Shown here: positions 425 to 5,010 of the stretch, in pieces | How positions within the stretch are numbered: position 1 is the first letter of the stretch | Layout: the number at the start of each line of letters is the position of its first letter | Assembly (NCBI GenBank): GCA_030616165.1 | Contig: JAUWXV010000270.1 | Span: forward strand, 1-5,010 | DNA from: a bacterium | GTDB lineage: Bacteria; SM23-31; JAUVVT01 | Reading direction: 5' to 3' | DNA: 5,010 nucleotides | The notes under the pieces: model-generated | Seen by the model: only the letters and a program-made list of their open reading frames with translations | Database searches by the model: none | Told to the model about the DNA's origin: nothing | Made by a program: the position numbers and the translations under genes

Positions 425-3400
425 TCAAAAGAAAAAACAATTGTTCTTCAACTTTTCAATATTCTCTATTCCAGACTTACTATTCAATTTTTTAATTTTT
501 TCCACAATAAGGTTAGCCTCACCAGGTATTCTGGATTGAACCTTTCCGATTATTATAAAAGGACCAACACCTTTTAATAGTGCACCGTATTCCTGATAAA
601 CCTTTGGAAATAAAACACATTCCATAACACCTTTTTTGTCTTCGATTGTGATAAATTTCATAAATTCACCATTTTTCGTATATGCCTTCCTTCCTGTTAC
701 AATCCATCCTGCCACCTTTACTTTATTCTCCCTTTTCTTTTCAAGCTCATTAGAAAAAGTAATTGTGGGGTCTCTTTCAATCTCCGGGAAAATGCTCAAT
801 GGATGACCAGAAACGGCAAAGTTCAATATTTCAATTTCATTAACAATACGCTGAACAAAATTATACGGAGAGAGATTCAGATTGCCTGTAAGAATTCGCG
901 TAACTTCTCTTTTTTTCTTATTTTTAAAATAGACTTTCGCCTTAATAATAAGATTCGGTTCACTTTTTTCAATAGAACGAACTGCCCCACATCTGATAAG
1001 ATTATTTATCTCCTTTTCTCCCAGCGAACAGCGGTCTATTAAATCATATAATTCAGTGAATTTTCCCTTTTTCCTCTCTGAGACAATCTTATTCATACTC
1101 TTACAGGTTAGTTCTGAAACAGCCGAAAGTCCTGATATTATTTCATTACCACTCGATGTAAATTCGATTTCCGCTTTATTCACGTCAGGGGGAACAATTT
1201 TTAATCCCATTCTCCTGCATTCCTCTATATATTCTGCTCTTGAATAGAATCCCCCAAAATTATTCAACACCGCTGTCATATATTCAACAGTGTAGTAATT
1301 CTTCAGATATGCACTCTGATATGCAATAAGTCCGTATGTAGCACTGTGAGCCTTGTTAAATCCATAACCAACAAAATTGCAGAGAAGATTCCATATATTT
1401 TTTGCTTCTTTTTCATCGAGACCGTTTTTTATCGCCCCATCTGTAAACTTTTTGTTTATACTCTTCAGTTCGTTTTTATTCCTCGATTTGGTCATTGCCC
1501 TCCTTAATATATCTGCTTCTCCATATGACAGGCCTGCTATTTCATTGGCTATCTTTAAAACCTGCTCCTGATAAACGATTATACCGCATGTATCTTTAAG
1601 TATCGGTTCCAGAGATGGATGTGAATATTTGACATCTTCTATTCCAGCCCTCCTTTTAATATATAAATCTTTCATTCCCCCTTCTGAAGGTCCGGGGCGG
1701 ATAAGAGCAACCGCAATAATTATATCATCAAGGTTTTGAACGGTCAATTTTCGCAATAACCCTCTCATTGCAGGGCTCTCAAGTTGAAAACATCCAATGG
1801 TATTCCCATTCCCTATCATCATCAGGGTCTGGTGGTCATCCTCCGATATATCATCAAGATTATCCTTTCCAACACTTTTAAGGCAGTCTGAAATAACACT
1901 CAAAGACCTTACTCCGAGCAAGTCCATCTTTACAAGTCCTAACTTTGCAATAGAATACATATCATGCTGAGAAATGATAATCCCTTTTCTTGACTCTTCC
2001 AGAGGTGTATATTGAGTAATCTTATCCGGGGCAATTATCACGCCCCCAGGATGAATCGAAAGATGCCGCGGAAAATTAGTAATCTTTTTACAGTCTGAAA
2101 GCATATTTTTATACACATTCGTCTTCAGCGGGCTGTCCTTACATTCCGGCACCTTCTCCAGAGATTCTTCAAGGTTTTCAATTTTCCGATGAGGGAGCGT
2201 TTTTGTCAAGTTTCTCACCTCTTCCTCTGAAAAACCATACGCTTTCCCCACATCACCAATAGACGACCTTATCCCAAAGGTATTAAAAGTGCATATCATT
2301 GCTGTTTTATGATGTCCGTATTTCCGATAAACATAATCTATAACCTGGTCTCTCCTCTTCCAGCACAAATCAAGGTCTATATCAGGCGGGTCACTCCTCT
2401 CCGGATTAAGAAACCGTTCAAAGTAAAGATTATATTTTATCGGGTCCACTCGTGTAATACCAAGTGTGTATGAAACAATACTATCCCCAGCCGAACCCCT
2501 CCCAACGCAGGGTATTCCATTGTTTTTCGCATAATCAACAATATCCTTTACTATCAGAAAATATTCCGTATATCCCATAGAATTGATGATATCAAGTTCA
2601 TACTCCAGCCTTGAGGTTATCTCATCTGTCAACTTTTTGTATAATCTTTCTGCCCCTTTCCAGCACATCTTCTTCAAAATAGAAAGAGGTGTTTCTCCAT
2701 CTGGTACATCAATTTTTGGAAAAACCGGTTTATTCAGCGAATATTCAAACCTGCACTTTCTAGATATTATTTGTGTATTTTTGATTGCACCGGGATATCG
2801 TGAAAACATCTCTTTCATCTCTTTTTTTGATTTCAGATACTGCTCCTCACTCCCTTCGAATTTTGTCCGTGAAATTGTATCACTTTTATCTATTGCATGC
2901 AGAAGTCTCCTCAGCGGAAATTCCGACTTCGAGAGATAATGAACATCATTGGTGCATACCAACGGAACACCCATATTTATACTCAAATCATTCAGTTTGT
3001 GATTCAGCAGTTTGTCTCCTGCTCCATAATACTGAATCTCTATATAAAAATCTTCCCCGAAAACTCTTTTCCATTTTCTGCACTCAGTTACTGCCCTGTC
3101 CACATTCCTTGAGTTGATAAACCTCGTTATTCTCCCCTTTTTCCCTCCCGAAAGGGCAACAAGCCCCGAATGCCTCTTAAATATACTCCCATCATCTATA
3201 CTAAATTTGAGATGCCCCCCTTTAATACTCCCAACAGTGATTATATCACATAAATTATTATACCCTTCACTGTTTTTCACAAGAAGAACAACGGAACTCC
3301 CATCTGAAAGAGTAATTTCACTCCCTATTACAGGATGTATTCCTTTCTTATTTGCCTTCTCATAAAAACATACAGAGCCATAAAGATTATTATGGTCTGT

Positions 3401-3520
3401 AAGAGCAAGATGCTTCATACCAAGATTTACCGCTTTTTCAATAAGGGATTCAATCGGCACAACTCCGTCAAGAAGACTGAAGTTACTGTGACAGTGAAGG
3501 TGCGTGAAGAATGTATCCAT
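425..3520 (-). CDS. dnaE2: error-prone DNA polymerase III alpha subunit, DnaE2 type
   Basis: A 1031-residue C-family DNA polymerase, probably acting in translesion or damage-induced synthesis. Domains in order: N-terminal PHP domain (HLHCHS at 7-12, ALTDHNNLYG at 39-48, NDVHYL at 191-196); palm with GRGSAGDS (340-347) and PPDIDLDL (378-385), giving catalytic Asp382 and Asp384; KMDLLG with the third Asp at 533; fingers (GFNKAHSATYG, 720-730); helix-hairpin-helix region near 775-850; OB fold about 934-1005 (KVAGWIVTGRKAYTKNGEF). Three things favour DnaE2 over replicative DnaE1: SDPPDID before the catalytic aspartates, RHLSIHPGG (485-493) where DnaE1 usually has RNAGIHAAG, and an end soon after the OB fold with no long tau-binding tail. 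The PHP domain has lost some metal-ligand positions, and no clear QxxLF-type clamp motif is seen. The ATG at 3520 puts the PHP motif at the usual distance from the N terminus and has a Shine-Dalgarno AGGA. The gene overlaps the end of the upstream Y-family polymerase gene by 38 bases. C-family polymerase identity is certain; the DnaE2 subclass is likely. Confidence 0.93.
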   Translation of the reverse strand: MDTFFTHLHCHSNFSLLDGVVPIESLIEKAVNLGMKHLALTDHNNLYGSVCFYEKANKKGIHPVIGSEITLSDGSSVVLLVKNSEGYNNLCDIITVGSIKGGHLKFSIDDGSIFKRHSGLVALSGGKKGRITRFINSRNVDRAVTECRKWKRVFGEDFYIEIQYYGAGDKLLNHKLNDLSINMGVPLVCTNDVHYLSKSEFPLRRLLHAIDKSDTISRTKFEGSEEQYLKSKKEMKEMFSRYPGAIKNTQIISRKCRFEYSLNKPVFPKIDVPDGETPLSILKKMCWKGAERLYKKLTDEITSRLEYELDIINSMGYTEYFLIVKDIVDYAKNNGIPCVGRGSAGDSIVSYTLGITRVDPIKYNLYFERFLNPERSDPPDIDLDLCWKRRDQVIDYVYRKYGHHKTAMICTFNTFGIRSSIGDVGKAYGFSEEEVRNLTKTLPHRKIENLEESLEKVPECKDSPLKTNVYKNMLSDCKKITNFPRHLSIHPGGVIIAPDKITQYTPLEESRKGIIISQHDMYSIAKLGLVKMDLLGVRSLSVISDCLKSVGKDNLDDISEDDHQTLMMIGNGNTIGCFQLESPAMRGLLRKLTVQNLDDIIIAVALIRPGPSEGGMKDLYIKRRAGIEDVKYSHPSLEPILKDTCGIIVYQEQVLKIANEIAGLSYGEADILRRAMTKSRNKNELKSINKKFTDGAIKNGLDEKEAKNIWNLLCNFVGYGFNKAHSATYGLIAYQSAYLKNYYTVEYMTAVLNNFGGFYSRAEYIEECRRMGLKIVPPDVNKAEIEFTSSGNEIISGLSAVSELTCKSMNKIVSERKKGKFTELYDLIDRCSLGEKEINNLIRCGAVRSIEKSEPNLIIKAKVYFKNKKKREVTRILTGNLNLSPYNFVQRIVNEIEILNFAVSGHPLSIFPEIERDPTITFSNELEKKRENKVKVAGWIVTGRKAYTKNGEFMKFITIEDKKGVMECVLFPKVYQEYGALLKGVGPFIIIGKVQSRIPGEANLIVEKIKKLNSKSGIENIEKLKNNCFFF

Positions 3521-4700
3521 GTTTTTCCATCCTGTATTTTGTCTTTAAAGGCATGGTATTGGCAGGATATACAGATGTAAAACCAAACTTATATCTAACA
3601 GTATCAATCTTTTCGTTCAATCTTTCCTTTTTTGATTCATTTTGAAATAAAATTGCCTGCCTATATTTTCTTTCAATCTTACCTACCGCAACCGATACTA
3701 ACCTAAGGCAAATTCTCCTGAAATGTATCTTTTTGTATATCCTCATTATCTCCTTAAATATAATCCCACTGTCATCTGTTACCTCTGATAAGACACGAGA
3801 ATGTGCAGTATTTACATTGTCGGAAAAGAGCAATTTCAATCTTACACTTCCACATACCCAGCAGTTTTCTCTTAATTTATAAGCAATCCTTTCGGAAAGA
3901 TATGCGATTGTTCCTATTATAATCTCTTCATTATCTGTATCCTCCTCAAAAGATGTCTCTCTGCTTATCTGTTTTGATATTACTTTTGCCTTTACCGGAC
4001 TGTTATCTATGCAGTTTGCATATTCCCATATTTTTTTTCCATTTATGCCGAAGAGCTGGATAAGTAAATCTCTGGAAACTTTTGTAATATCCCCTATGGT
4101 TTTGATTCCAATTCCCTTTAATAATCTTTCCGATACCCTCCCTATACCCGGAAGTTCACTTACAGGTAGTTTCGCAATAAATTCCTTTTCCATTCCAGAT
4201 GGCACAATTGTAATTCCGTCTGGTTTATTGCGTGCAGATGCAATCCTCGCTACGAGTTTTGAAGTAGCAGCACCAATAGATACCGTTATCTTTAATTCTT
4301 CGTAAATCTCTGATTTAATATAATTTGTTACTTTATATATTGAATCGAAAAATCTTTTAAAACCCGTAACATCAATATAAACATCATCTAATGAACTTAC
4401 CTCAACGTAAGGTGTAATCCTGTATAAGATTTTTTTTATGGTTTCAGATACTGCTCTGTATCTTCTGAAATCTCCCTTAAGACATACTGCCTCAGGACAG
4501 AGTTTTTTTGCCATCTGAATTGGCATACCAGTCTTCACACCGCACATTCTTGCTTCATAACTTGCAGTGTGAACACAAGCCCGCTGGTTCTCATCTCCAC
4601 CAACAATCACAGGCTTATCTCGTAAAACGGGATTTAAACTCTTTTCAACAGATGCAAAAAAAGCATCCGCATCTATGTGAATTATATTCCTCTCTTTCAT
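3483..4700 (-). CDS. dinB: Y-family translesion DNA polymerase, DinB/Pol IV type
   Basis: A 405-residue Y-family polymerase that would insert nucleotides opposite damaged template bases. Visible parts: HIDADAFFASVE (8-19) with metal ligand Asp10 and steric-gate Phe15; CVHTASYEARMCGVKTGMP in the fingers (42-60); SSLDDVYIDVTG (102-113) with catalytic Asp105; TVSIGAATSKLVARIAS (139-155) and NKPDG; thumb helix-hairpin-helix LPGIGRVSERLLKGIGIKTI (183-202); little finger starting near SRETSFEEDTD (246-256). QAILF (348-352) is a plausible beta-clamp motif, followed by a tail (LNEKIDTVRYKFGFTSV) like that of several DinB/UmuC relatives. The residue after Asp105 is Asp106, where DinB proteins usually have the catalytic Glu. 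The start is placed at 4700, not at an in-frame ATG at 4856: the family begins a few residues before HIDAD, the extra 52 codons run through palindromic repeats, and a strong promoter lies between the two ATGs. There is no Shine-Dalgarno before 4700, consistent with a leaderless mRNA. It is not an ImuB-type inactive paralogue, because the acidic residues remain. It is first in the operon with dnaE2. Confidence 0.92.
   Translation of the reverse strand: MKERNIIHIDADAFFASVEKSLNPVLRDKPVIVGGDENQRACVHTASYEARMCGVKTGMPIQMAKKLCPEAVCLKGDFRRYRAVSETIKKILYRITPYVEVSSLDDVYIDVTGFKRFFDSIYKVTNYIKSEIYEELKITVSIGAATSKLVARIASARNKPDGITIVPSGMEKEFIAKLPVSELPGIGRVSERLLKGIGIKTIGDITKVSRDLLIQLFGINGKKIWEYANCIDNSPVKAKVISKQISRETSFEEDTDNEEIIIGTIAYLSERIAYKLRENCWVCGSVRLKLLFSDNVNTAHSRVLSEVTDDSGIIFKEIMRIYKKIHFRRICLRLVSVAVGKIERKYRQAILFQNESKKERLNEKIDTVRYKFGFTSVYPANTMPLKTKYRMEKHGYILHAPSLSQ
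3530..3533 (-). promoter_or_regulatory. ribosome binding site of dnaE2 inside the upstream gene
   Basis: On the minus strand AGGA (followed by TGG) lies nine bases before the ATG at 3520, within the last codons of the Y-family polymerase gene. This supports the overlapping start and suggests that ribosomes finishing the first gene can help translate the second. Confidence 0.6.
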
Positions 4701-4706
4701 ATATAT

Positions 4707-4724
4707 AGTATACAAATGTTCACT
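4707..4724. promoter_or_regulatory. dyad operator-like site over the -10 and spacer
   Basis: The 18 bases form a symmetric pattern AGT-NN-ACA-NN-TGT-NN-ACT, with all 12 specified positions paired. The site covers the -10 hexamer and the adjacent spacer, where a bound repressor would block RNA polymerase. Read on the plus strand it contains ATAC-AAAT-GTTC, on the same centre of symmetry. This matches the Gram-positive/cyanobacterial style LexA pattern (GAAC or GTAC, four bases, GTTC) in one half and only partly in the other. SOS control would suit both genes, but the regulator's identity is inference. Confidence 0.45.
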
Positions 4725-4735
4725 ATAAATGTCAA
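4707..4735 (-). promoter_or_regulatory. sigma-70 type promoter of the dinB-dnaE2 operon
   Basis: On the minus strand TTGACA (4735-4730) and TATACT (4712-4707) are separated by exactly 17 bases: a perfect -35 and a one-mismatch -10. Only six bases (ATATAT) separate the -10 from the ATG at 4700, so the expected transcription start falls at or within a base or two of the A of the start codon. The message should be leaderless or nearly so, which explains the absent Shine-Dalgarno sequence. Confidence 0.8.
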
Positions 4736-4757
4736 GTATTTTTTTACAATCCTCTTT

Positions 4758-4781
4758 GCAACCTTTTTGAAAAAAGGTTGC
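4758..4781. repeat. hairpin 1 of upstream module A
   Basis: A perfect 11-base inverted repeat, GCAACCTTTTT with AAAAAGGTTGC, around a two-base GA centre. It lies 23 bases upstream of the operon's -35 box. Neither strand has the U-rich tail expected of a terminator. The TTTGAAAA core recurs in the hairpin at 4919-4944, and the same ACTTT-containing linker type follows both. Confidence 0.75.
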
Positions 4782-4792
4782 ACCAAAAACTT

Positions 4793-4832
4793 TATACTTC
4801 CTTATCCCTTGCTTCGCAAGGGATAAGGTATA
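4793..4832. repeat. hairpin 2 of upstream module A
   Basis: A perfect 12-base stem, CTTATCCCTTGC (4801-4812) with GCAAGGGATAAG (4816-4827), closed by a TTC loop. The outer pairing TATAC/GTATA (4793-4797 with 4828-4832) extends it past a three-base TTC bulge. The general form is the same as the stem at 4963-4997, with a TTTGC/TTGC-to-GCAA apex but otherwise different sequence. Confidence 0.75.
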
Positions 4833-4898
4833 ATCTAAAAATTTTCTTGACTGCATTTGATAAATTTCAGATATTGTCTATATTATAAAGATTTTTCT
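4833..4898. other. AT-rich spacer between hairpin modules
   Basis: No frame or clear regulatory pair is visible. A plus-strand TTGATA (4857-4862) and TATTAT (4881-4886) are 18 bases apart, but this is weak in such AT-rich sequence and no plus-strand gene follows within the window. Confidence 0.4.
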
Positions 4899-4917
4899 TA
4901 CTTTCTTTTGAAAAAGA
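4899..4917. repeat. partial direct copy of hairpin 1 of module B
   Basis: TACTTTCTTTTGAAAAAGA repeats the first part of the adjacent hairpin (4921 onward: TACTTTCTTTGAAAAGAAAG) in direct orientation 22 bases away. It keeps a six-base TCTTTT/AAAAGA pairing around the same GA centre (4904-4917). It looks like a duplicated and truncated arm. Confidence 0.5.
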
Positions 4918-4918
4918 T

Positions 4919-4944
4919 CCTACTTTCTTTGAAAAGAAAGTAGG
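4919..4944. repeat. hairpin 1 of upstream module B
   Basis: A perfect 12-base inverted repeat, CCTACTTTCTTT with AAAGAAAGTAGG, around a GA centre. It corresponds in position and core (TTTGAAAA) to the hairpin at 4758-4781, but its outer arms differ while remaining fully complementary. The following GCAAAGAAACTTTTA resembles GCACCAAAAACTTTA after the first copy. Confidence 0.75.
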
Positions 4945-4962
4945 CAAAGAAACTTTTAAATT

Positions 4963-4997
4963 ATTTCTAATTCTTTGCGTAGCAAAGAATTAGAAAT
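4963..4997. repeat. hairpin 2 of upstream module B
   Basis: A perfect 16-base stem, ATTTCTAATTCTTTGC with GCAAAGAATTAGAAAT, closed by a GTA loop. It is the longest exact palindrome in the window and the counterpart of the stem at 4793-4832. No run of T follows at once on either strand; on the plus strand GGATAAACTTTTT follows and reaches the window edge, so a plus-strand terminator cannot be fully excluded. Confidence 0.75.
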
Positions 4998-5010
4998 GGA
5001 TAAACTTTTT

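Follow-up and report, generated by a model that had tools for sequence, protein, structure and literature searches.

Why should two double hairpins stand side by side at the end of a bacterial contig, with arms that differ widely between the copies and yet remain complementary throughout? The window analyzed here, 5,010 bases long, is an entire contig from a draft genome of 3.74 Mb. It carries a gene for a DnaE-type polymerase (425-3520, minus strand, PF07733) and, upstream of dnaE on the same strand, a gene for a DinB/Y-family polymerase that starts near position 4700 (PF00817). Directly before dinB we observed a promoter-like sequence on the minus strand (4707-4735, TTGACA-17-TATACT, 11 of 12 bases) that overlaps an imperfect palindrome, AGTATACAAATGTTCACT, a possible SOS operator for the dinB-dnaE pair.

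Both modules are located upstream of dinB and match, to within one or two bases, the positions given in the initial annotation of this DNA: module A at 4757-4830 and module B at 4919-4997. Both are perfect double hairpins in which all arms are 100% complementary, and both consist of a first hairpin (H1), whose 12-bp arms enclose a GA loop, a linker with an ACTTT end and a second hairpin (H2). H1 of module A (4757-4782) reads TGCAACCTTTTT-GA-AAAAAGGTTGCA and has an apical T5/A5 tract, and the H2 of this module (4798-4830) has perfect 13-bp arms (4800-4812 and 4816-4828) around a TTC loop. H1 of module B (4919-4944) reads CCTACTTTCTTT-GA-AAAGAAAGTAGG, with a pyrimidine arm TTTCTTT (4924-4930), a purine arm AAAGAAA (4933-4939) and an outer stem CCTA/TAGG; its H2 (4963-4997), ATTTCTAATTCTTTGC-GTA-GCAAAGAATTAGAAAT, has perfect arms of 16 bp (4963-4978 and 4982-4997). 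The initial annotation described H1 as having a TTTGAAAA centre. This sequence is there, but H1 pairs up to a two-base loop, so that the supposed centre is the apex of the stem together with the GA loop. The AAACTTT linker that it described is present as well, but the annotation overlooked that this linker is a mirror copy of an H1 arm.

Modules A and B fold as DNA or RNA with z values of -7.2 to -8.9, and 0 of 200 dinucleotide shuffles were as good. A blastn search with the region gave at least 54 matches in the genome, with 40 of 267 candidates scored. We then built a covariance model from 24 modules, and the search for other paired-hairpin copies that the initial annotation had suggested as a check found at least 122 in this genome and 66 in a same-family genome of another genus, as its proposal of a dispersed, BIME-like repeat family had anticipated; four other genomes of the class and one outgroup gave no match. 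Modules A and B themselves score 69 bits (4757-4830) and 99.5 bits, respectively. In a MAFFT alignment of 24 hand-picked modules, 92.9% of the cells were paired and changes on both sides of a pair occurred in 110 cells, against a shuffled mean of 28.7. Among 88 covariance-model matches, standard pairs filled 96.1% of the pair cells, both-side changes were seen in 486 cells (shuffled, 121.7) and in 26 of the 28 pairs, and the signal was destroyed when the partners were slid against each other. The alignment of these matches is fitted to the model and hence leans towards the structure, and the MAFFT alignment gives the same picture. Both data sets agree with the earlier view that the arms vary while staying complementary, and that the folded form is kept rather than the sequence.

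Hairpins and linkers listed from 528 kb of the genome revealed what the linker is. Read on the T-rich strand, it precedes H1 and is the mirror image of the H1 pyrimidine arm, except that the basal one or two C are replaced by G where a strict mirror would have C, leaving one or two positions without canonical triads. Seven arm types take the linkers expected from this rule (CTTTCTTT with TTTCTTTG, CTTTCTTTT with TTTTCTTTG, CTTCTTTT with TTTTCTTG, CCTTTTT with TTTTTGG, CCTTTTTT with TTTTTTGG, CTTTTTT with TTTTTTG and CTTTTTTT with TTTTTTTG), and the lengths of the T-runs in arm and linker vary together. The H1s with linkers from the 528 kb follow the rule with rare single-base exceptions (for example L016 4098). 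In module A, the linker CCAAAAACTTT (4783-4793, plus strand; AAAGTTTTTGG on the minus strand) mirrors the arm CCTTTTT with CC read as GG. In module B, the linker CAAAGAAACTTT (4945-4956, plus strand) contains AAAGAAA at 4946-4952, which mirrors the purine arm and is a candidate third strand; the minus strand reads TTTCTTT here.

Arms of asymmetric sequence distinguish mirror order from direct order. In a survey of 193 genomes the arm CTTCTTTT was accompanied by the mirror linker CAAGAAAA in 16 cases (10 in this genome and 6 in the same-family genome) and by the direct-order CAAAAGAA in none; the same survey, too sparse for the arm CTTTTCTT, contained no match to it. In 36 genomes reached from other loci, CTTTTCTT had its mirror linker, which is CAAAAGAA, in 149 of the 150 matches listed, and CTTTCTTTT had the mirror linker CAAAGAAAA in 32 cases and the direct-order CAAAAGAAA in 2, both of which are opposite-strand readings overlapping a mirror match. 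The mirror rule holds in several phyla. That two arm types have opposite linkers excludes a mere preference for a single linker sequence. The asymmetric arms also rule out Watson-Crick pairing between linker and arm and direct duplication of the arm. Moreover, a mirror copy cannot come from duplication or inverted duplication, so ordinary copying is not its source. Mirror order is what a third strand running parallel to the purine arm requires, and the mirror linker therefore fits a triple helix. Where the H1s of a full element differ between its two ends, each linker corresponds to the H1 at its own end (L031 12780 and 12932); pairing of the two linkers with each other, which we considered as a cause of the linker sequence, is thereby ruled out.

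Intrastrand-triplex motifs have been described in prokaryotes by Holder et al. 2015 (PMC4666352). The ITxF definition of such repeats asks for three stems in succession (pyrimidine, purine and third strand), each 6-15 nt long, which are separated by loops of 1-6 nt and form matching triads. Module B has TTTCTTT, AAAGAAA and AAAGAAA with loops of 2 and 6 nt and no mismatch. Most other H1s conform as well; module A, with five triads, would fall short of the strict cut and fits the class only loosely. In the asymmetric arms the order of the third strand is mirror and not direct (16:0, 149:1 and 32:2). The E. coli repeat known as BoxC, PIT or TM-ECO folds into a stable triplex in vitro; its copies are arranged in inverted pairs, are without exception intergenic, mark unstable loci and show no preferred distance to reading frames; in vivo footprinting in E. 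coli did not show stable triplex formation (PMC4666352). These repeats were also treated by Hoyne and Maher 2000, as cited in PMC4666352.

The present repeat shares with PIT/BoxC/TM-ECO the order of pyrimidine arm, loop, purine arm, short loop and third strand, a high copy number, an intergenic position, frequent inverted pairs and presence or absence between related genomes. We read E. coli copies directly, and the one at NC_000913 164547-164631 consists of a triplex, an 18-nt centre and an inverted triplex. Unlike the G/C-rich E. coli repeat, ours is A/T-rich; the loop separating its third strand from the purine arm forms an outer stem with the 5' flank, a feature absent from all the E. coli copies that we read; its complete copies mostly centre on one or two long perfect hairpins instead of a short centre; its third strand mirrors the arm base for base, whereas E. 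coli has T opposite A; and it lies strikingly close to stop codons. It does not fit the consensus of TM-ECO/BoxC proper (CCCTCNCCC-N3-6-GGGNGAGGG-N3-GGGNGAGGG), its arms being A/T-rich and different in sequence. Like H-DNA, it contains a homopyrimidine mirror repeat that can give rise to T.A-T and C+.G-C triads, but the complementary purine run is on the same strand in a hairpin, so that one strand alone can fold. Like MITEs, it is short, non-coding and dispersed with inverted ends, but shows neither a terminal repeat of a known transposase nor a target duplication. In the open-licence literature we found no report of an A/T-rich, hairpin-filled, stop-proximal form, and a search with the linker sequence returned nothing relevant. 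The triplex repeat type has been described already; the A/T-rich form, the hairpin-filled layout and the stop-codon habit appear to be undescribed.

A complete copy is an inverted pair, H1, linker, H2, linker' and H1' (for example L017 9884-10005). Some copies have two H2s (L031 12780-12955, L031 14305-14475 and L022 6552-6705), and a minimal one has none (L032 8284-8362). Modules A and B of the window are half copies. Beyond module B the contig looks as if it stops inside a right-hand linker: GGATAAACTTTTT (4998-5010, plus strand) resembles the start of this linker in full copies, and a minus-strand covariance-model match (4963-5010) ends at the contig edge. A decayed right end may be present after module A (4837-4872, minus strand), where by eye we distinguished a linker-like AAAAATTTTCTTG (4837-4849) and an eroded H1'; a weak minus-strand covariance-model match covers 4797-4871 (38.9 bits, E 4e-4). 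An extra incomplete H1 (CTTACTTTCTTTTGAAAAAG, 4897-4916, plus strand) forms a direct repeat immediately 5' of module B. Half-copy H1 arms precede 9 of 44 H1s, against a background of 2%. Such incomplete pyrimidine arms just before a complete H1 were seen at window 4897-4916, in L023, L024, L026 and L151, and in Gemmiger loci such as L036, L037 and L062, as if copies nested into or recombined with earlier ones. The stand-alone palindromes ATTCCCCCGAGTACTCGGGGGAAT at L035 2956-3039 are of the same type as some H2 apices, which suggests that H2 tips are themselves a dispersed repeat.

Exact copies of the H1-plus-linker string are found, among the matches listed, in Oscillospiraceae/Gemmiger, other Clostridia, Gammaproteobacteria, Chlorobi, Chloroflexi, Lentisphaerae and Prevotella, and this sharing of H1 could reflect either transfer or convergence on a good triplex sequence. 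The whole module including H2 was found only in the family of this genome and in assembly CSMAG_1171, among the matches listed and the genomes searched with the covariance model. At five Clostridia RGIG loci (L046, L067, L095, L097 and L113) tandem H1-linker arrays are attached to a conserved body (AATAACGTGCATCGTTATCG...AACCCGTCGGACGC) and seem to form a further composite element.

The position of the repeat relative to genes was analyzed with a simple gene caller on contigs most of which had been chosen for having BLAST hits; of the 42 elements that could be placed on these, 41 are flanked by codirectional genes, compared with 175 of 228 background gaps of at least 80 nt. Behind a gene of the same direction, 18 of 28 copies begin between -25 and +10 nt relative to the stop codon, against an expectation of 7.2, in some copies the stop codon is inside H1, and the peak at zero distance recurs in other phyla. 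At one orthologous site in Gemmiger, H1 is placed exactly at the stop codon in two genomes; in five or six other genomes, which lack H1, the gene ends alike but different sequence comes next, mostly an ordinary terminator. At a second Gemmiger site (L061/L040), two genomes have in common an H1 after the stop codon and a separate conventional terminator further downstream; L061, unlike L040, has in addition a second element of about 90 bp. The separate terminator and the presence/absence pattern indicate that H1 is not the terminator and that copies come and go. We found no transposase and no clean insertion junction, and no target duplication was resolved at the two Gemmiger sites, so that the case for mobility is built on copy number and on presence/absence. 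The orientation of the repeat relative to replication, deduced from contig GC skew, was uninformative (25 with, 16 against).

Three other readings of the modules fit worse than a triplex repeat. One is that they are REP/BIME elements (REPINs) mobilised in trans by the Y1 (RAYT/TnpA-REP) transposases of the genome, in which we found seven PF01797 matches. The palindromes, the high copy number, the inverted pairs and the extragenic position are what such elements would show, but the rest of the evidence makes this origin improbable. No H1 occurs in the examined flanks of 4 of the 7 Y1 genes; one Y1 gene (L011) has an H1 fragment about 150 bp upstream, as expected on a copy-rich contig. Several are flanked instead by distinct hairpins of their own with GTAG/CTAC tags (L009 CCGAGCCTG...CAGGCTCGGCTACG, L014 GTAGGGGC...). 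H1 has no GTAG/CGTC tetranucleotide tag outside its stem, GTAG being confined to the paired 3' arm in some variants, and its inner hairpins are much longer; nor does the RAYT model predict a mirror linker. The REP identity considered in the initial annotation therefore does not hold in the strict sense, since the Y1/RAYT genes have differently built hairpins and are not flanked by H1 and H2. We recorded Y1/RAYT-like genes with their own hairpin repeats at L009 1102-2276, L012 1100-1219 and L014 1302-1331 and 2041-2068; these loci are typical REP systems, unrelated to the triplex repeat. A REP-like hairpin, GGGCGGGTAAACCCGCCCCTACG, also lies within the reading frames of two different Y1 genes (L010 1730-1751 and L011 1733-1754).

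The modules might alternatively act as RNA, either in a 3' UTR or as a small RNA, with the triple helix or the double hairpin serving to protect or regulate a transcript. The place directly behind stop codons with one predominating orientation and the strong covariation of the pairs would suit this function, and RNA can form pyrimidine-motif triplexes, but purine-motif triplexes do not form in RNA (PMC4666352), and in most unpaired copies it is the purine linker that the mRNA of the upstream gene contains. An element kept as RNA is expected to tolerate G.U mispairs and not A.C mispairs on the RNA strand. We counted both among the covariance-model matches, the hand-picked modules being biased because perfect arms had been required, and found that mispairs were strand-symmetric, with 12 G.U against 14 A.C in the best 50 matches and 33 against 30 in all 88, a comparison weakened somewhat by some full elements being counted on both strands, which would blur any true difference. 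G.U being as rare as A.C argues for selection on DNA and not on RNA. In addition, an Rfam scan gave only sub-threshold chance matches, none above the gathering score. The structured-RNA candidate of the initial annotation thus seems to us a doubtful one.

That the modules are ordinary intrinsic terminators of neighbouring genes, alike by chance, is very improbable: the elements are located at gene ends and there is one terminator-like, chance-like match at H1 of module B on the minus strand, but the H1 stems are A/T-rich without a consistent T-run after the stem, the H1 at the L061/L040 site has a conventional terminator separately downstream of it, a terminator needs no mirror linker, and the E. 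coli PIT had neither promoter nor terminator activity in the earlier work of Maher and colleagues, as PMC4666352 cites it.

We consider it likely that modules A and B belong to a dispersed non-coding DNA repeat of the A/T-rich intrastrand-triplex type (PIT/BoxC/TM class) whose complete form is an inverted pair. Each end, H1 with its own linker, would constitute one A/T-rich intrastrand-triplex motif: in a single strand the linker would fold back along the H1 hairpin as the third strand, with T.A-T and C+.G-C triads on the T-rich strand. Module A provides only five A/T triads, and its third strand is consequently weak, making it a weak member of the family. Triplex or hairpin would form transiently when the DNA becomes single-stranded during replication or transcription. 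As most unpaired copies have the purine linker on the mRNA side and RNA supports no purine-motif triplex (PMC4666352), folding is more likely on the T-rich strand, as single-stranded DNA. With zero spacer the third strand has no bridge across the 4-5 bp outer stem, so this stem and the triplex probably exclude each other and may represent alternative states. The inner hairpins would be kept perfect at the DNA level. The family may spread or turn over by a replication-linked single-strand process that uses factors in trans; in this genome no mobilising protein was identified, and the Y1/RAYT genes are poor candidates. A bolder version, which we put forward tentatively and think rather unlikely, is that H1 and its linker form a bistable switch between a 12-bp hairpin with the outer stem closed and a triplex of 7-8 triads with the stem open. 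In this version the triads would be selected in several phyla, and the element, placed behind stop codons, would act on exposed single-stranded DNA as a pause for the fork or polymerase or as the end at which a single-strand mobile element, itself undescribed, is recognised.

Bacterial triplex repeats have been known mainly from one G/C-rich sequence, in which triplex order is hard to separate from plain conservation, and A/T-rich triplex motifs were earlier judged to be nearer to random expectation. In the family of the window modules, many different arms each take the matching mirror third strand, and this amounts to covariation evidence that the triplex itself is kept. The mirror rule makes testable what had been a biophysical possibility, and the location behind stop codons and the inner hairpins offer new handles on the function and spread of triplex repeats.
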